Source: Nitrospira sp.
GTDB lineage: Bacteria; Nitrospirota; Nitrospiria; Nitrospirales; Nitrospiraceae
Assembly: GCA_013140455.1 (NCBI GenBank)
Contig: JABFSU010000099.1
Span: 1 to 33,091, forward strand
DNA length: 33,091 bases
Reading direction: 5' to 3'
This document shows, piece by piece, positions 3,542-28,454 of this stretch. The notes beneath the pieces are model-generated. The model did no database searches. It was not told where the DNA came from and saw only the letters and a program-made list of their open reading frames with translations. Each line of letters opens with the position of its first letter. The first letter of the stretch is position 1. A program made the translations under genes and the position numbers.

Positions 3542-3952
3542 CTACTCGATCGTCCCTCTGAGCGCCTTCAGCCGCCCCTGCTTCTTTTTACTTTCGATCC
3601 GCCTGGTCTGAGACCCCTTCGTCGGTTTCGTGGCGCGTCGTTTCTTGCGCGGGATGGCCACACTCTGAATCAAGAGACAGAGTCGCTCCAGCGCATCCTC
3701 CCGATTCCGCTCTTGCGTGCGGTGCTGCTGCGCTTTGATCGTGATGACTCCATCCTGCGACACACGGTGGTCTTTGAGCTTCAGCAGCTCCTGTTTGTAG
3801 AACGGAGGCAAGGACGACGCGTTGATGTCGAACTGGAGATGGATGGCGGTCGAGACCTTATTGACGTTCTGTCCGCCGGCTCCTTGCGAACGCATGGCAT
3901 GAAGGTCGATTTCAGAGTCGGGGATGATGATGTGTGACGAGATGTGGAGCAT
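3542..3952 (-). CDS. arfB: Alternative ribosome-rescue factor, peptidyl-tRNA hydrolase
   Basis: ArfB (YaeJ) enters the empty A site of ribosomes stalled without a stop codon and hydrolyses the peptidyl-tRNA, as a backup to tmRNA. The 136-residue protein has the release-factor catalytic GGQ at 26-28, inside RSQGAGGQNVNKVSTAIHL. It also has the strongly basic C-terminal tail (KKRRATKPTKGSQTRR and KKKQGR) that enters the mRNA channel. It lacks the codon-recognition domains of RF1/RF2, as expected. Length agrees with E. coli ArfB (140 aa), and the N-terminal strand aligns from the first residue, so ATG 3952 is the right start. Oddly, no Shine-Dalgarno sequence precedes it, and a perfect 13-bp inverted repeat lies 14 bases upstream. 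Confidence 0.93.
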   Translation of the reverse strand: MLHISSHIIIPDSEIDLHAMRSQGAGGQNVNKVSTAIHLQFDINASSLPPFYKQELLKLKDHRVSQDGVITIKAQQHRTQERNREDALERLCLLIQSVAIPRKKRRATKPTKGSQTRRIESKKKQGRLKALRGTIE

Positions 3953-3965
3953 AAAGATTACGAAA

Positions 3966-3993
3966 GATAATGAAGCTGAACAGCTTCATTATC
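3966..3993 (-). repeat. Perfect 13-bp inverted repeat upstream of arfB
   Basis: GATAATGAAGCTG at 3966-3978 and CAGCTTCATTATC at 3981-3993 are exact inverted copies separated by AA. On the minus strand the structure lies between the nuclease-like gene and arfB and is followed by TTTCGTAATCTTT before the arfB ATG. It could be a weak terminator for upstream transcription, an RNA hairpin controlling arfB translation, or an operator. A second palindrome, GCAAGGCCTTGC, is at 4047-4058. Confidence 0.7.
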
Positions 3994-4134
3994 GCATCGA
4001 CCAGCCTATATGGAACCCCAGAGACTGTGTCCCAGTCCTTTACCCGGCAAGGCCTTGCTAAATGACATTCTTAAATATCCTAATATCTATCTCGCTCGAC
4101 GACTCTGTCCGGTGCTCTATTTATCAGCCGGCTC

Positions 4135-4863
4135 TCAGTAAATACGCTTCCATCTCTTAAAGACCCGAACATCTTCAACTGAAAGCGCGAACCACTCTCC
4201 GTTCTTGCGTTTCTCTGCAAACCTGCGATGCCAATAACTTTCTACACCTCCCGGATCATCAGTCTTGATTTGGTGGACCGGCTCTAGTTGCTCGGGGAGC
4301 TCAATGCCGATTTCGCCTTCCCGTCGTATTGGGTTGTTCGTTCGACCGATCTTGTACTCTCGACGTGTTCCATGTCTAACAAGATAAACATACCCTGGGG
4401 CCCGACCTTCGCTTGATTCCTCGTCAGCATCTAGTGGTCTGACGATGACAGCCTGGGCGCAGAATGGAATGATATCTTCATATCCCTCATGTGTCCGACA
4501 ATATTCAAGTACCTTTGCTGCACGTTGAGACTTAGACCCCAATCGTTTGAAAGCCGCCCGATCCGGGAAAGTCTTGTCTCCCTTACGTTTGACCATGAGC
4601 TGACCTTCAATTGGAAAACTTTGAAGCTCACGAATCAGATCAATGTATTTTCGAATCAGGACCTCAGGGTCATATGAAGTGCTGAATAAATTCGACTCAC
4701 ATCCGGCCTCGCGGATGGCATCGCCCCAACGAAGCCAGTACTTGGGATACCAGGCATTCTTTTTAATACCTGTCTCAGATTCGAATCGCTGACTTCCTGG
4801 CGACTTTCCATTGTCTGCTTTGGCCATACGGCGAATGATATCGAGGATCTGATTTCTATCCAT
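4135..4863 (-). CDS. GIY-YIG nuclease-family protein with homing-endonuclease-associated repeats
   Basis: The 242-residue protein has two parts. The N-terminal half resembles the repeat found next to homing endonucleases, a helical DNA-binding unit. One copy, with GKSPGSQRFESETG and ending in WGDAIREAGC, spans about 6-55, and a second looser copy spans about 69-125. The C-terminal half is a T5orf172/MUG113-type GIY-YIG domain. It has GYVYLV at 157-162, YKIGRT at 170-175, a conserved Glu208 and His212, and the closing GEWFAL at 222-227. Members of this fold nick or cleave DNA. GTG 4866 directly precedes ATG 4863; the ATG is preferred because TGAGG at 4873-4869 is 5 bases before it. The gene is more AT-rich than its neighbours and is flanked by sparse sequence, which suggests acquisition by transfer. 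Activity and target are unknown. Confidence 0.8.
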   Translation of the reverse strand: MDRNQILDIIRRMAKADNGKSPGSQRFESETGIKKNAWYPKYWLRWGDAIREAGCESNLFSTSYDPEVLIRKYIDLIRELQSFPIEGQLMVKRKGDKTFPDRAAFKRLGSKSQRAAKVLEYCRTHEGYEDIIPFCAQAVIVRPLDADEESSEGRAPGYVYLVRHGTRREYKIGRTNNPIRREGEIGIELPEQLEPVHQIKTDDPGGVESYWHRRFAEKRKNGEWFALSVEDVRVFKRWKRIY

Positions 4864-4866
4864 CAC

Positions 4867-5195
4867 AACCTCAGGCGCTTACTAACTAGTGGCTCTGTTC
4901 CTTCAGCCGCTGTAGATTGGCGAGGCAGCCATTAGTAATTCGTTGACGAGGAAGTGTACTGCAAAGCCTGATGTGTATCCAGTTTCACAATTGTCTGGTA
5001 GTTGGGGGGCTGGCAGCCGTCCCCGCTGGCGCAATGGGAACCTGCCGAGTATCTGTTTGGAAGGAAGATAAAAACTAACCAATTTCGAGAGAGAATTCAC
5101 AAAGGATATCGTCTGGCCGGATCGTTCCGGAATGCGGAAGTCCGACAACATTCCCGTCGCACTCAGTAATGTTTTCTAAACAACGGCGGAGGTGC
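4867..5195. other. 329 bp without a supportable gene
   Basis: An 82-codon frame on the minus strand (5151-4903) has no ribosome binding site, no recognisable motif and no hydrophobic or domain pattern, so I do not call it. No tRNA, insertion sequence end or direct repeat was seen. The segment shares the lower GC of the nuclease-like gene next to it and may be decayed material from the same insertion. Confidence 0.45.
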
Positions 5196-5420
5196 TTACT
5201 GCAACTCCGGCACACGGTCGATGATGCGAAGTCTGACGTCATCACCGAGTTGAATTTGAACCATTTTAGTGGAAAGGTTTTCGCGGACTTGATTCACATC
5301 GTTCACGGTGAAGCGGATCTGACCACCGCAGCGCTCGACGAGGTGATAGAGCAACAGCGTGGTGAGGTAGCTGACTTCTTCGTCGTTGGCATGCTCGCTG
5401 AAGTTCAATATTTGAGGCAT
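5196..5420 (-). CDS. Small cytoplasmic protein of unknown function
   Basis: The 74-residue protein begins MPQILNFSEHANDEEV and ends with RLRIIDRVPELQ. It is acidic, has no signal peptide or membrane segment, and shows an amphipathic helix in the LTTLLLYHLVERCGG stretch followed by strand-like segments. This regular pattern argues for a real fold. The start at 5420 is the only ATG that gives a clean protein. GGGGAGA lies at 5440-5434, 13 bases upstream and further than usual, so initiation may be weak. The frame stays open farther upstream to 5525 but without a better start. I do not recognise the family, and the neighbours give no functional clue. Confidence 0.55.
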   Translation of the reverse strand: MPQILNFSEHANDEEVSYLTTLLLYHLVERCGGQIRFTVNDVNQVRENLSTKMVQIQLGDDVRLRIIDRVPELQ

Positions 5421-5608
5421 GATGTTTTCAACGTCTCCCCGTGGTGAAGAACCTTTATCGCCGAAGCGAGGTCGATCGCACAATGCCCCAAAAGAAGGGG
5501 AGCGGCAAGCGACAGTTTTGTACAATCGAAGGGGCGCCCGGTGGAAGGCAGTTGGTCCAGATGTCCGGGAGCGGCAGATCCGTTAGGTCGTTCGCGGTGA
5601 GGGCTTCC

Positions 5609-6181
5609 TTACGGAGACGGTGAGCTGTCTTTGCTCGGGATAAATCGTACCTCATCAGCCAGTTCGTCGAGGAGAGAGCGGCTTGGCCGTGGTTCTTGCT
5701 GCGGCCTACCGTGAAGAAAAAGAATTCCCTGCAAATCTGGTCCTATGATCGCCATGCCTCGACCAGTTAATGAGCCTGCCACGTAGGTTGCGGTCAGTTT
5801 CTTTCCATGACGCGTCACATTGCCGGTTGGTTCAAACACCAGCGTGTCGGTAATGGGCTGCGGTTCTCCGAGTAAGGTAAGAAGCTCCTCTTCTGTCTGG
5901 TTGAGAATCGCGAAAGCGAGGACAAAACCCGCTTCTTTTTCTGAGACCAGAAGCACGGCGGCCAGGTTGTCCAGTTGTTCGCCACGCCATCCTGTTGGAA
6001 TGAGAAAAGAGGCGACGCCGTTTGGCACGCGGACGCGGGTGCCGGCGCGATAGCTCTGCCCGGCTTGCATGTCGATGGTGGTTGTGCGGGGTGGCGGGGA
6101 TTGCGCCCAACTGCCTGGTCCCCCCAGTATGAGACAACACAAGGCAGCCAGGGCTGTGCGAGCGGAGATCGTGACGATCAT
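5609..6181 (-). CDS. Exported protein of unknown function
   Basis: The protein has about 190 residues. It starts with a signal peptide (MIVTISARTALAALCCLILG then a likely cut after SWAQ), so it is probably periplasmic. The mature part contains strand-rich segments around GVASFLIPTGWRGE and LAAVLLVSEKEAGFVLAFAIL, and a glycine-rich stretch near AGSLTGRGMAIIGPDLQG. No catalytic motif is evident. An in-frame GTG at 6196 would add five residues. Neither start has a good ribosome binding site, and the ATG gives the more usual signal peptide. The gene begins about 30 bases after the gcvP stop on the same strand, so the two may be cotranscribed, though nothing else links it to glycine metabolism. 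Confidence 0.7.
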   Translation of the reverse strand: MIVTISARTALAALCCLILGGPGSWAQSPPPRTTTIDMQAGQSYRAGTRVRVPNGVASFLIPTGWRGEQLDNLAAVLLVSEKEAGFVLAFAILNQTEEELLTLLGEPQPITDTLVFEPTGNVTRHGKKLTATYVAGSLTGRGMAIIGPDLQGILFLHGRPQQEPRPSRSLLDELADEVRFIPSKDSSPSP

Positions 6182-6213
6182 TCCATTTATGGGCACAGAG
6201 CCAACGATATGGA

Positions 6214-9102
6214 TCAGGGTTGATAGCTATCCATCGGAGGACAGGTGCAGATCAAATGGCGATCTCCGTAGGCTTCATCGATGCGGCTAACTGCCGGCCA
6301 GAACTTGTTGGCTCTGACAGATGGAGTCGGGAATGCCGCCTGTTCCCTCGTATAGGGACGATTCCAGTCCGTGGCCGTGACGGTAGTTGCTGTGTGCGGC
6401 GCATTCTTGAGCACATTATTGGTACGGGGTTGACGCCCGTCGGCGATCTCTTGAATCTCTGCGCGAATGGCGATCATCGCCTCACAGAACCGGTCTAATT
6501 CAGCTTTCCCTTCACTCTCTGTCGGTTCAATCATCAAGGTGCCGGCGACCGGAAACGACACGGTCGGTGCATGGAAGCCGTAATCCATGAGGCGCTTGGC
6601 GACATCCATGGCTTCCACGCCGGATGATTCTTTAAAAGGCCGCAGATCGAGAATGAACTCGTGCGCGACATGTCCTGTGGCGCCGGTGTAGACGATAGAG
6701 TAGTGCTTCTCCAGCCGTTTGGCCATGTAGTTGGCGTTGAGGATGGCGACTTGTGTGGCCTTCTTGAGGCCGTCACGGCCCATGAGGGCGATATACACCC
6801 AGGAGATAGGCAGAATGCTCGCGCTGCCGTGCGGGGCTGCGGATACGGGACCGATCGACTCGCGGGTTCCCAGCCCTGTCACAGGATGCCCCGGGAGATA
6901 GGGCGCGAGATGTCTGGCGACGCCGATGGGCCCCATGCCAGGGCCGCCTCCGCCGTGTGGGATGCAAAACGTCTTGTGCAAATTCAGATGGCAGACGTCG
7001 GCGCCGATGTCGCCTGGCCGGCAAAGCCCGACCTGTGCATTCATGTTGGCTCCGTCCATGTAGACTTGGCCGCCATGGGTGTGGACGATCTGGCAGATCC
7101 GGCGTACGTCCGCTTCGAAGACCCCATGCGTTGAGGGGTAGGTCAGCATTAAGGCCGACAGCCGGTCGCGGTACTGCACGGCTTTCGCTTCCAGGTCGGT
7201 CAGATCCACATTCCCCTGCTTGTCACAGGCTACGACGACCACCGTCATCCCCGCCATCGCCGCACTCGCGGGGTTGGTGCCATGGGCCGACACAGGGATC
7301 AGGCACACATCCCGATGAGGCGCACCCTGCCCACGGTGGTACGCGCGAATCACCATCAGCCCCGCATATTCACCCTGGGAGCCGGCGTTGGGCTGGAGCG
7401 AGATGGCGGCAAATCCCGTAATCTCCGCCAACCAGGATTCCAGCTGCCGGAACAATTTCTGGTAGCCTTGTGTCTGCTCGGCCGGGGCGAAAGGATGAAG
7501 ATGGGCAAATTCCGGCCAGGTGACCGGGAGCATTTCCGCTGTCGCATTCAACTTCATGGTGCAGGAGCCCAGCGGAATCATCGAATGTGTGAGCGATAAA
7601 TCCTTTCCCTGGAGCCGATGCAGATAGCGCAACATCTCATGCTCGGAATGATACCGATTGAACATCTCATGCGTGAGATAGGAACTCGTCCGTGCCAACG
7701 GATTGGGATAGCCGGGCTCGATAGAGCCGGCGAGGTCGATGACTTGGAACGGCAGGCGGTCATGGCCGACGAAGAGTTCCAAGAGCGTCCCGACTTCGTG
7801 TTCGGTGCTGGCTTCATCCAGTGAGAGACCGAGGGACCCGTCTTCATGGGTCCGGAGATTGATTCGCCGTTCGTTCGCTCTGACGCGGATCAGATCGACC
7901 TGGTTCTTGGGCGCGCGGACTCGCAACGTATCGAAGAACAATTCCGGGCCCACGTCAAAGCCAAGCCGGCGCAAACCCTCGGCAAGCATCAGTGTCAATC
8001 CGTGCACGCGCTGCGCGATGCGGCGGAGCCCGTCGGGCCCGTGATACACCGCATACATGCCGGCCATCACGGCCAAGAGCACCTGGGCCGTACAAATGTT
8101 GCTCGTCGCTTTTTCCCGCCGGATATGTTGCTCACGCGTCTGGAGGGATAACCGGTAAGCCGTATTGCCGGCCGCATCTTTCGACACCCCGACGATACGG
8201 CCGGGCATCTGGCGCTTGAATTCTTCCTTGGTGGTTAAGAACGCGGCATGCGGGCCGCCGAATCCCATAGGGACCCCGAACCGTTGGCTGGAGCCCACGG
8301 CAATGTCGGCGCCGAACTCTCCAGGAGAGCGCAACAGCGTCAATGCCAGCAGGTCTGTGGCGACCACCACGAGTATTCCCGCCTCATGAGCGCGAGCGAC
8401 CAGGCCGCTGACGTCCCCGACATAGCCGTCGCTCGTCGGGTATTGGAGCAACAATCCGCACAAGGTCTTATCCGAGAACTTGATCGAGGCGTTGGGGCCT
8501 GAGCGAATGGTGATACCCAAGGGTTCAGCGCGTGTTTGGAGAATCGCGAGGGTCTGCGGATGGCAGTCCTGCGAGACAAAGAATTCTTTCCGCTCCTCAC
8601 CCTGTGATCGAGATATGGTCAAGCACATGGCCATGGCTTCTGCGGCGGCGGTCCCCTCGTCCAGCAATGACGCATTGGCCAGGGGCAATCCGGTCAGATC
8701 CCCGACCATCGTTTGAAAGTTCACCAGCGCTTCAAGGCGGCCTTGGGCGATTTCGGCCTGATAGGGCGTGTATTGGGTGTACCAGCCGGGGTTTTCCAGA
8801 ATGTTCCGCTGAATCACGCCGGGGGTGATGCAATGGTGGTAGCCCATGCCGATGAGCGAACGGTAGACACGGTTCTGAGCCGCGATCTGCTTCAGTTCGT
8901 CCAGCACAGCCTGCTCCCCTCGCTGCGGCGGCAAGTCCAGCGGCTTTCGCAGCTGGATATCCTGGGGAACCGTGACATTACAGAGATGTTCCAGTGAGGG
9001 CATGCCGGCTACGGCCAGCATGTCGCGGATGTCGTCGTCCGAAGGACCGATATGGCGCTGTGGAAAGAGATCGGTCGCTTGCAGAAAATCAGGTTGAGGC
9101 AT
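6214..9102 (-). CDS. gcvP: Glycine dehydrogenase (decarboxylating), P-protein
   Basis: GcvP decarboxylates glycine with pyridoxal phosphate and passes the aminomethyl group to the lipoyl arm of GcvH, the first step of the glycine cleavage system. The protein has about 962 residues, the full single-chain form (E. coli 957 aa) rather than the split GcvPA/GcvPB type. The N-terminal half begins [14 protein letters not shown]. The C-terminal half carries [19 protein letters not shown], whose Lys (residue 710 from this ATG, codon at 6975-6973) is the pyridoxal phosphate attachment site. [13 protein letters not shown] marks the start of the second half. GTG 9117 lies in frame five codons upstream; neither start has a strong ribosome site. 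gcvT and gcvH are not adjacent. No glycine riboswitch was recognised upstream. Confidence 0.96.
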
Positions 9103-9283
9103 GTTCGTTCGATCCACTCGCTATCAGATGGTTCGTGAATGACGCATGAGCCCGAGGAGAGTACCATGGCGCTGCTCCATTTCCAATATCCCGCGGCCTG
9201 GCGTCACCACCGCTTGCCATGGAGATGGATAGTTCTGTAAGTACAGGGGTTAGAGGGGATTTCTCCCATTTCCACGGGGTGTG

Positions 9284-10954
9284 ATGACAACTCAACGAAC
9301 ACATCTGCATGACATTCTCATCGTCGGAGCTGGTCTGGCAGGCATGCGCGCGGCTCTTGCCGCGCCGGGGAATCTGGACGTGGCGCTGATCTCAAAAGTC
9401 CATCCGGTTCGCAGTCACTCGGTGGCGGCGCAAGGCGGGATCAACGCCGCGCTCGGCGAGAATGATTCATGGGAAGCCCATGCCTTCGATACGACAAAGG
9501 GAGGGCTCTACCTGGGCGATCAGGATGCGATTGAGGCGATGTGCCGGGAGGCCCCGGGAGACATCCTTGAGCTGGAGCGAATGGGCGTGATCTTCAGTCG
9601 TGATGCCCATGGCCGCATCGCCCAGCGACCGTTCGGGGGAGCCGGGTTCCCGCGCACGTGCTATGCGGCCGATCGCACCGGACACGCGCTGCTGCACGCG
9701 CTCTATGAGCAAATTCTCAAACGGCGCACCACCGTCTATGAAGAGTGGTACGTCACCGCGCTCGTGGTCGAAGCCGGCGTCTGTCGGGGAGTCATCGCAT
9801 GGGATATGGTGCAAGGCGGCTTACGCGTGATTCAGGCGAAGGCCGTCATCCTTGCGACAGGCGGCAGTGGCCGCGTGTTTTTGACCAGCACGAACGCAGT
9901 GATCAATACCGGCGACGGAATGGCGTTGGCCTATCGCGCCGGGGCGTCACTCATGGATATGGAATTCGTCCAGTTCCATCCGACCACATTGAAAGACACG
10001 GGCATTCTGATTACTGAAGGGGCGAGGGGTGAGGGCGGCTATCTACTCAATACCCTGGGAGAGCGGTTCTTGAAGCGGTATGCGCCGGAGCAAATGGAAT
10101 TGGCGACCCGCTCGACGGTCTCCCTCGCGATCGGGCAGGAAATACTTGAAGGGCGAGGCGTAGATGGGTGCGTGTTACTGGATCTCCGGCATCTCGGGCG
10201 AGACAAGATTATGGAACGACTCCCGCAAATCCGGCAGATTGCGATGGAGTTTGCCGGGCTCGATCCGGTTGAAACGCCGATTCCCATCAGGCCAGGCGCG
10301 CACTATCAAATGGGTGGAGTCAGAGCTAACCAATGGGGTGAGACGGCCATCCCCGGCCTCTTCGCGGCAGGAGAATGCGCCTGTGTTAGCGTGCATGGGG
10401 CCAATCGCCTGGGCGGCAATTCACTGTTGGAAACTATTGTATTCGGTCGACGAGCTGGGACGAAGGCCGGCGAGTACGCTGGAACCGTGGGGCACGAGAC
10501 TCCGGCGCCGCAGCATCTCGTTGAAGAGCAAGCCAGAGTTGAGCGGTTGCTTTCTCAGAGTGGAGGAGAACGTGCCTGGCAGGTGCGGCAGGAGCTGGGG
10601 GTCACGTTGAGTACGAACCTCGGGATCTTCCGGACAAAAGAATCGATGACGGCGGCCGGAAGCAAGGTGCGGGAGCTCCAGCACCGCGCGGCGGCGGTCA
10701 CGGTGCAGGACAAGGGGCGAGTCTTCAACACCGACTTGATCCAGGCGCTGGAGCTCCAATGTTTGGTTGAACTCGCGGAAACCATTGTCGCAGGGGCGCT
10801 CGCGCGCGAGGAGAGCCGCGGCGCGCATTACCGTTCCGATTTCTCCACCCGCAACGACGCCGCCTGGCTGCGGCATACGGTGGCTCAACGGACGCCTGAT
10901 GGTGTGAGTTTGTCCTATGCCCCGGTCACGGTCACCCGGTTCCAGCCTAAGTAG
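9284..10954 (+). CDS. sdhA: Succinate dehydrogenase / fumarate reductase flavoprotein subunit
   Basis: This is the 556-residue FAD subunit of complex II. The nucleotide-binding GAGLAG follows ILIV at the N terminus. The segment [12 protein letters not shown] carries His45 (His46 counting from the GTG at 9281), the residue that binds FAD covalently in SdhA/FrdA and is absent from L-aspartate oxidase. Other family blocks are [39 protein letters not shown] and [13 protein letters not shown]. The C terminus ends with the [10 protein letters not shown] and [10 protein letters not shown] pattern of SdhA. NadB is therefore unlikely, although the families are related. GGGG at 9276-9279 precedes the start. 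A weak promoter, TTGCCA at 9214-9219 and TGTAAG at 9236-9241, may drive it. Iron-sulfur and membrane subunits are not adjacent. The direction of the reaction cannot be told from sequence. Confidence 0.87.
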
Positions 10955-10957
10955 CAA

Positions 10958-10971
10958 GACGCTGCAGCGTC
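10958..10971. repeat. 14-bp perfect palindrome after sdhA
   Basis: GACGCTGCAGCGTC lies 4 bases after the sdhA stop. It could form a short 5-bp stem with a TGCA loop, but no T tract follows, so it is at most a weak terminator. An operator for the downstream regulator is also possible. Confidence 0.4.
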
Positions 10972-11034
10972 CTGGGCCTTTGGTCGGGACTCCGCTCGTT
11001 CACCACATCTATCCGAGAACATCCTCCGTATGTT

Positions 11035-11043
11035 TGGTATAAT
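11035..11043 (+). promoter_or_regulatory. Extended -10 promoter of the two-component operon
   Basis: TGGTATAAT at 11035-11043 is a perfect -10 hexamer with the TGn extension. The -35 region is weak, as is usual for extended -10 promoters. Transcription would begin near 11050, only about 15 bases before the response regulator ATG at 11065, leaving just room for the ribosome site GGAG at 11056-11059. Confidence 0.6.
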
Positions 11044-11064
11044 CGACCCGCGAGAGGAGTCCGT

Positions 11065-11736
11065 ATGCGTGTGCTCGTTGTCGAAGACGAAACGAAGGTC
11101 GGCTGTTTCATCAAGCGCGCGCTTGAGGAAGAAAGCTATGCCGTCGATCTCTGTGAAGACGGGGCCAAGGGCCTCGAGATGGCGCTGGCGACCAATTACG
11201 ATTTGATCGTCGTGGATCTCATGTTGCCGTCGATGTCGGGGATGGACATTCTCAAAGCTGTGCGGCGTGAACGGATTCAAACGCCGGTGATGATTCTGAC
11301 GGCGCAGTCCCAGGTGGATCAACGGGTGAAGGGCCTCGATGCCGGCGCCGACGATTATCTCACCAAGCCGTTTGCCATCGATGAACTGCTGGCCCGTGTC
11401 CGGGCGCTGTTGCGCCGGGGGGCGACCGAGAGTCCCGGCATTCTGCAGATCGACGATCTGGTGCTGAATCCCGCGACGCGTGAAGTCGCGCGGGGCGGGC
11501 AGCGCATTGAGCTCACCCTGAAAGAATATGCGCTGTTGGAATATCTCATGCGGCATACCGGACGGGTGCTGACGAGGCCGATGATTTCGGAACACGTCTG
11601 GAACCAGGATTTCGACACCTTCACCAATGTCATCGACGTCTACGTCAATTATCTCCGCAACAAGATCGACCGGGGCCGGTCGAAGAAACTCATCCATACG
11701 ATCCGCGGCAGCGGATACATGCTGAAAGTCGACTGA
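11065..11736 (+). CDS. OmpR/PhoB-family response regulator
   Basis: The 223-residue protein is a two-domain transcription regulator. The receiver domain spans about 1-115, with acidic residues Glu7 and Asp8, phosphoacceptor Asp51 (VVDLMLP), Thr79 and Lys101 (TKPF). The winged-helix DNA-binding domain of the OmpR type spans about 128-223, with LTLKEYALLEYL, the recognition-helix region TNVIDVYVNYLRNKID and the closing RGSGYML hairpin. It is closest in style to the CusR/CopR/MprA-like group. GGAG at 11056-11059 lies 5 bases before the ATG. Its stop overlaps the kinase ATG by one base, so the two are translationally coupled. Probable targets include degP, because three 11-bp direct repeats of the form bound by this family lie just before that gene. 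Confidence 0.93.
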   Translation: MRVLVVEDETKVGCFIKRALEEESYAVDLCEDGAKGLEMALATNYDLIVVDLMLPSMSGMDILKAVRRERIQTPVMILTAQSQVDQRVKGLDAGADDYLTKPFAIDELLARVRALLRRGATESPGILQIDDLVLNPATREVARGGQRIELTLKEYALLEYLMRHTGRVLTRPMISEHVWNQDFDTFTNVIDVYVNYLRNKIDRGRSKKLIHTIRGSGYMLKVD

Positions 11737-22875: not shown

Positions 22876-22950
22876 GGGCGATTGGCTCAGTGGTAGAGCG
22901 CTTCCTTCACACGGAAGAGGCCACAGGTTCGATCCCTGTATCGCCCACCA
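22876..22950 (+). tRNA. tRNA-Val (anticodon CAC)
   Basis: The cloverleaf is complete. The acceptor stem is GGGCGAT/ATCGCCC. The D arm is GCTC-AGTGGTA-GAGC, and the anticodon stem is CTTCC/GGAAG with loop TTCACAC. The T arm is ACAGG-TTCGATC-CCTGT. The loop places C34-A35-C36 as anticodon, reading GUG valine codons. The discriminator is A at 22947, and the CCA end is encoded at 22948-22950. Confidence 0.96.
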
Positions 22951-28330: not shown

Positions 28331-28454
28331 CAGGCTGCTGAAAATGTCCTCCGGCATCGTTCTCAGTCGCTCATCCCCCTCAACGTACCATCCTGAGTAC
28401 GCCTCGGGGCCTGAACTCCTTGCGGCCTTGCCGGAGACCATTTTGAGCAGCCTG
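28331..28454. repeat. MITE-like element with 26-bp imperfect terminal inverted repeats
   Basis: Bases 28331-28356 and 28429-28454 are inverted copies matching at 23 of 26 positions. The outermost part is CAGGCTGCT...AGCAGCCTG. The interior of about 72 bp contains another small inverted repeat, CGTAC (28384-28388) with GTACG (28397-28401). There is no coding capacity and no clear target-site duplication. The element ends 4 bases from the 5' end of the SRP RNA gene and separates it from tRNA-Ser. It has the form of a REP/MITE-type dispersed repeat, but only one copy is in this window. Confidence 0.65.

Follow-up and report, generated by a model that had tools for sequence, protein, structure and literature searches.

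A free-standing GIY-YIG nuclease gene inserted beside arfB in Nitrospira and its possible spread by homing

The nuclease gene and its predicted product

The window, by which we mean the entire 33,091-nucleotide stretch of Nitrospira sp. that was analysed (contig JABFSU010000099.1, assembly GCA_013140455.1), carries a GIY-YIG nuclease gene on its minus strand at 4135..4863. No stop codon interrupts the open reading frame between 4135 and 4866, and its 243 codons predict a protein of 243 aa. The probable start is the ATG at 4863, which fits the start of the relatives better than the GTG at 4866 that is also possible. The C-terminal part of the protein, residues 158-239 (4150..4395, minus strand), is a T5orf172/MUG113 GIY-YIG domain. 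In Pfam the MUG113 model matches residues 171-236 at E 2.3e-15 (57.4 bits against a curated cut-off of 22.3) and the T5orf172 model matches residues 158-239 at E 1.3e-8 (35.7 bits against a curated cut-off of 20), and both models are matched by all 14 aligned family members when these are scanned singly.

The N-terminal part contains two helical repeats. The first (4696..4857, minus strand; residues 4-57, helices 4-17, 25-32 and 47-53) is HNH_repeat-like, and the second (4492..4668, minus strand; residues 67-125, helices 67-81, 87-96, 103-109 and 112-125) resembles it as judged by eye. In the window protein HNH_repeat scores 14.8 bits (E 0.036), under the 26-bit Pfam cut-off. We regard the repeats as real though weak in this copy, because 13 of the 14 aligned members, the window protein included, match HNH_repeat at E<=0.1 when scanned singly, the best of them at 1.4e-13. 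The initial annotation had described a GIY-YIG protein with homing-associated repeats, and these searches confirm it. In the AlphaFold model, made with nine aligned sequences (mean pLDDT 81.2, pTM 0.38), three to four helices form a bundle at residues 4-53 and again at 67-125, and the model also has a loose linker (residues 142-154) and a mixed alpha-beta domain. Since the pTM is low, the domains are not fixed relative to each other.

Thirty-seven columns are invariant among the 14 aligned family sequences, and the residues conserved in every one include G158, Y161, K172-I173-G174, R182, E209, E224 and F226. An Arg and a Glu of the GIY-YIG fold are described as catalytic in a study of a phage nuclease (PMC8263062), and R182 and E209 are predicted to be their counterparts in the window protein. 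Values of dN/dS between three family copies at three loci (L065, L066 and L067) are 0.14-0.27, which indicates purifying selection on the nuclease family.

An insert in the spacer upstream of arfB

The gene lies within a stretch, 3954..5190, that replaces a 76-104 bp spacer of 11 relatives and whose ends are good to some tens of bases. Two genes flank it and lie outside it: arfB, for a ribosome rescue hydrolase (3542..3952, minus strand, match 2.1e-57), and a small conserved gene (5196..5420, minus strand) whose start, MPQILNF..., was judged from relatives. DNA of the region is matched in 76 of the 79 genomes of the genus. In all 11 of the close members inspected (G067, G002, G014, G050, G068, G038, G070, G069, G041, G011 and G071) the spacer from arfB to the small gene is about 76-104 bp long and lacks the nuclease gene, against about 1,237 bp in the window; these lengths are approximate, being gaps measured between match ends. 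Among 12 more distant members, the gap at this spot is short in two, and ten have 1.0-2.6 kb of other genes, seven of these ten with what appears by eye to be the same exported-looking protein of about 250 aa. A single-protein search found no nuclease match in any of the 12. The spot by arfB therefore tolerates insertions.

The composition of the insert is foreign to its surroundings: its GC content is 0.485, and the window as a whole averages 0.580 (z -3.75). When 1,237-bp windows were moved in steps of 10, the lowest GC was found in the one starting at 3951, that is, at the insert. The 'AT-rich patch' first noted here is the lowest-GC 1.24 kb of the window, although the term is a little strong for DNA of 48.5% GC. 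To say that orphans surround the gene is loose wording. The start of arfB is 182 bp from the nuclease gene, and for the open reading frame at 4903-5151 neither Pfam nor NCBIfam gives a match at E<=1, while PHROG gives a single one at E 0.018. We also looked for the gene at the same place in all relatives, with normal composition and no empty site, and did not find that pattern.

About 500 bp of the insert falls outside the nuclease gene and has no clear match to the native spacer. In local alignments of the insert with six of the eleven native spacers, that of G050 beat shuffled sequences (p 0.007) and the other five failed, and end-anchored tests for pieces of native spacer at the insert ends gave nothing. 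Comparison with gene-less relatives, which the initial annotation had suggested for finding the insertion ends, gave eleven empty spacers but not the exact ends, the native spacer having diverged in the kin. We found no target site, target duplication or precise end at the insert, and no repeats at its ends; one 14-nt direct pair inside it, at 4493 and 5140, is chance-like. There is no integrase among five open reading frames scanned around the gene, no Rfam match, and the closest tRNA starts at 22876. Downstream of the nuclease gene is a perfect 13-bp inverted repeat with 2 nt between its arms (3966..3993, minus strand; fold z -4.55), which was not listed by the terminator scan but is a possible terminator candidate. 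No second copy of it was found in this genome. Ends of IS or integron type were rejected, as the hairpin is single-copy in the genome and the insert ends are without repeats.

A footprint of co-conversion was sought in arfB. Over the 53 bp adjoining the insert, identity between the window and its kin averages 77%, against 85% among the kin, and three changes are private to the window, against none or one in each of five relatives. We do not find this convincing.

Distribution and phylogeny of the family

Within the genus a single-protein search matched the nuclease in 10 of 79 genomes, this one included. Seven have it at full length (G006 with an internal stop), and in the rest it is split, partial or broken. 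With a 14-row profile, the family was found in 16 of 398 genomes of the order of the Marinicaulis locus L022, which we take to be alphaproteobacterial, and in 16 of 397 genomes of the class of the planctomycete locus L014, the query genome being included in both counts. The count for the class takes in five genomes with partial matches only, G676, G686, G835 and G843 among them; the nearly full-length copy of G763, which has a stop, is treated as full. One copy per genome is the usual state (8 of 8 genomes; 16 of 16 in the order of L022; 13 of 16 in the class of L014, the other three having 2-3 copies). Broken or partial copies make up about ten of the family matches. Ten loci in Planctomycetota, Acidobacteria, Proteobacteria and Verrucomicrobia came from a peptide-pattern search of GTDB genomes; of these, L023 is a C-terminal piece only. 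Among 50,697 phage records four matched, and among 72,556 plasmid records five, none covering 80% of the protein; these matches are to the nuclease domain, with no full-length relative. A scan of IMG/VR, which reaches close relatives only, confirmed no relative.

A tree of 39 sequences, made by a quick method without bootstrap, places the window copy as sister to planctomycete L014 (SH-aLRT 99), while L062, from the same genus as the window, pairs with another planctomycete (83, not starred). The seven rows of the genus need four label changes on this tree, two of them forced by starred branches. This tree, which crosses phyla, and the patchy occurrence of the family point to horizontal spread. 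The GC content of the gene is below that of its flanks in 36 of 42 family rows, or in 35 of 40 without two rows that repeat a genome; because the rows are related, these counts are no clean sign test. With its empty sites, odd composition and patchy, horizontally spread family, the stand-alone mobile nuclease gene supposed by the initial annotation is well supported. Among the papers listed in our literature searches, none deals with this nuclease family in its title or abstract.

Neighbouring genes

Neighbours were typed for most, not all, loci, and we therefore claim no neighbour enrichment. Of the 39 tree loci, two adjoin arfB (the window and L022) and three adjoin trmD (L154, L158 and L159); a MoxR-type AAA gene is near L016 and L170; and other loci adjoin ahcY, typA, uvrB, gmk, dcd, thiolase, 6PGD, NDH2 and polyprenyl synthetase genes. 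Some neighbours are toxin-antitoxin or defence-like, namely PIN (L014 and L066), HicB (L019), TIR (L021), HipA_C (L066), SocA (L067), SUKH (L020) and Uma2 (L149). When the 1.5 kb flanks of the 39 loci were compared in translation (E<=1e-6), the shared items were the arfB, trmD and MoxR-type AAA pairs or sets, the sister pairs L151/L152 and L155/L156, and the repeat of L066/L067. Beyond those few there is no recurring partner gene within 1.5 kb. By a rough hand estimate, some 36 independent loci would yield about one shared neighbour by chance, and we therefore see no clear excess.

The arfB gene was considered as a fixed homing target because of L022 and was rejected: the same spacer is a general insertion spot in 10 of the 12 distant members, and the window and L022 nucleases are not close, being only 38% identical. 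Rejected likewise was trmD, since two of its three loci are sisters and the rimM-trmD gap is variable. Since the arfB spacer accepts diverse DNA, as does the rimM-trmD gap, two loci can have a neighbour in common without having a target in common. The rimM-trmD gap (L158:1495-2215, L210-L229) ranges in the family of G328 from <0.1 to >4 kb and often holds small exported-looking proteins. Two genomes share, next after their nuclease gene (L155:1110-1469 and the same place in L156), a 119-aa gene that belongs to no Pfam family, and their outer flanks have nothing in common; nuclease gene and 119-aa gene are possibly a two-gene unit.

Signs of movement

In their coding DNA the copies L065, L066 and L067 are 88-90% identical, but they occupy three unrelated loci, each in a different genome of the genus. 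The L065 copy sits after the ahcY terminator, where six relatives, the window's genome included, have a gap of about 117-131 bp. The DNA common to the three begins about 60-70 bp before the start codon. In L065 it stops at the stop codon, giving a unit of about 790 bp that is hardly larger than the open reading frame, and in L066 and L067 it extends through a 125-bp repeat. The L067 copy now carries a stop.

A Schlesneria pair, L014 and L015, also shows signs of movement. The dS of the nuclease gene is 0.05 (NG86) or 0.036 (YN00), and that of six flanking genes is 0.475-0.889 (NG86) or 0.333-0.685 (YN00). The neighbouring PIN gene (L014:5357-5785; L015:5684-5956; NG86 dS 0.375) is excluded from the flank range because an indel misaligns it. 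In L015 this gene lacks about 320 bp, its end included. A tract of 94-100% identity spans the nuclease gene and part of the PIN gene, and the L015 nuclease copy contains a stop codon. Judged from dS, the pair apparently exchanged the nuclease gene recently at one locus, and the tract is of the pattern that homing would give. The sisters L158 and L159 share the rimM-trmD site, but their nuclease genes, with a dS of 1.59/1.03, differ more than the flanks, with 0.17-0.73, and this speaks against a simple story of spread. Close kin of L158 (G160, G199 and G179) have other DNA in the gap.

Islands, integrases and repeats in relatives

At L064, in G059, the nuclease gene lies within an island of about 5.7 kb (5567-11291) together with a tyrosine integrase (Pfam 8.4e-44). 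Its boundaries are tRNA-Val and a perfect 45-bp repeat of the end of this tRNA (5567-5611 and 11217-11261). No such island adjoins the syntenic tRNA-Val of the window (22876-22950), which is for that reason the empty counterpart of the G059 attachment site. The L020 copy adjoins another integrase and tRNA-Leu, with no tRNA repeat found within 8.5 kb, and one further family member is near a resolvase.

Two repeats were seen in passing. Many genus genomes carry a palindromic repeat of about 125 bp (L066:2241-2365, L067:3336-3460, L103:1501-1625 and further loci). When 26 copies from 22 loci were aligned, most ended at a core like TTTGTAAACCGCAGGTCG, which by eye often continues as the 3' half of a tRNA, and in four loci same-strand copies lie 1.2-3.6 kb apart. 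This repeat is likely the end of a tRNA-targeting element family. Since it has no match in the window, it was set aside as an explanation. An interspersed repeat of about 118 bp containing GCATCCTGC occurs at 28338-28454 of the window, where it adjoins tRNA-Ser, and at L065:5869-5985, and many genus genomes match it.

Comparison with known nucleases

The closest parallels are the free-standing T5orf172 homing endonuclease genes of ICP1-like and T5-like phages, as described in PMC10448857. These share with the present family the nuclease domain, a mostly stand-alone state, variable presence between isolates, often broken copies and a position often near essential genes (293 of 468 neighbourhoods in that study). 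Homing of the ICP1 genes is itself not tested there. The phage proteins regularly carry DNA-binding domains of Zn-finger type, CapR and DUF723 (PMC10448857), whereas the family described here is in bacterial chromosomes and has helical HNH_repeat-like repeats. HNH_repeat (PF18780, homing endonuclease associated repeat) is joined here to a GIY-YIG domain. Odn (ICP1 Gp88) similarly has a C-terminal T5orf172 GIY-YIG domain behind a DNA-binding N-terminus; it differs in that this N-terminus is RepA-like and in being a phage's nuclease against its PLE satellite (PMC8263062).

A fold search of the PDB with the whole model gave no match at E<=0.001. The GIY-YIG structures of Slx1, 6seh and 7cq2, are weak fold matches (Foldseek probability 0.72-0.75, E-values 0.63 and 1.3, 80 alignment columns, 18-21% identity), and the best PDB match by sequence profile is Hpy188I at E 0.54. 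The viral fold library gave 111 matches at E<=0.001; among the best 50 of these, those with rmsd <4 align 83-99 columns, which is the size of the nuclease domain. The window protein has no PADLOC match at E<=1, and the two relatives scanned, L014 (PDC-S57 5.5e-4, PD-Lambda-1 0.04) and L065 (PDC-S57 1.8e-4), have weak ones over the nuclease domain.

How the gene may have spread

Our preferred explanation, which we put forward tentatively, is that this is a stand-alone, horizontally spreading GIY-YIG nuclease gene behaving like a free-standing homing endonuclease gene. In this reading the two helical repeats would recognise a DNA target, in which the C-terminal domain would make a nick or a cut. 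When an empty locus is broken in this way and mended from a copy that bears the gene, it would receive the gene together with some of the DNA around it; in this genome the gene would have landed in the tolerant spacer upstream of arfB. The nuclease activity, the recognition of a target by the repeats and a spread driven by the protein's own cut are what we infer, and a site-specific nick or cut is predicted because the domain plan joins DNA-binding repeats to a GIY-YIG domain. Self-copying of this kind would explain why the gene stands alone, why copies are broken and why the family resembles the T5orf172 genes of phages, as well as the Schlesneria exchange. By itself it does not explain why L065-L067 are at unrelated loci, which is unlike classical same-site homing, and this counts against homing, as do the members in an integrase island, beside an integrase and near a resolvase. 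The interpretation given in the initial annotation is partly supported, its site-specific action and homing being putative: the insert ends could not be fixed, close copies are at unrelated sites, no convincing co-conversion footprint was seen in the window's arfB, and one relative is cargo of an integrase island. Because the family can travel as cargo, as in the L064 island and at L020, we hold homing no more firmly than this. The broader proposal, of a cross-phylum, chromosomal family of free-standing homing endonuclease genes in which tandem HNH_repeat-type repeats are joined to a T5orf172 cutter, beside housekeeping genes, outside introns, inteins and phages, and self-copying between species, is possible but more doubtful.

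The initial annotation had left a choice between a homing-type element and defence cargo, and both readings stay, with the unrelated sites of L065-L067 and the island of L064 bearing on the choice. A nuclease that cuts foreign DNA, probably of phages or plasmids, could be kept for its benefit and moved by integrase islands or by recombination at tolerant gaps. Transport by other elements would account both for the island and for the diversity of sites; the G059 copy in its tRNA-Val island opposite the unoccupied tRNA-Val of the window, the copy by an integrase and tRNA-Leu, the toxin-antitoxin or defence-like neighbours, the usual single copy per genome and the purifying selection all fit it, and a T5orf172 nuclease, Odn, is reported to guard its phage against the PLE satellite (PMC8263062). 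The absent or weak PADLOC matches, the lack of a recurring partner gene within 1.5 kb across 39 loci, a few pairs apart, the many housekeeping genes among typed neighbours and the ten or so broken or partial copies weigh the other way, and we consider cargo the main rival, though somewhat improbable. It is unlikely that ordinary recombination passively shuffled between tolerant gaps a gene with a cell function such as repair or recombination, its own nuclease having no part in the spread: the diverse genes that kin hold in the arfB spacer and rimM-trmD gap, and insert ends without a signature, are as this would have it, but a gene that the cell needs should be neither scattered over 10 of 79 genomes nor found in broken copies. 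Least probable, and by a good way improbable, is a remnant of a larger integrated element, reduced to the nuclease gene and about 500 bp of non-coding debris. The DNA outside the gene without a clear native-spacer match and the related copy in the L064 island would suit such a remnant, but no integrase is among the scanned open reading frames, the insert ends have no repeat, and the unit shared by L065 hardly exceeds the open reading frame.

Free-standing homing endonucleases are best known from phages. If the homing explanation is true, a family moving between the chromosomes of different phyla would offer a direct test of homing in cells, and the apparent recent exchange in a sibling pair together with known empty sites would make such a test possible. 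If the gene is instead defence cargo, it would be a candidate single-gene nuclease system outside the PADLOC models used.
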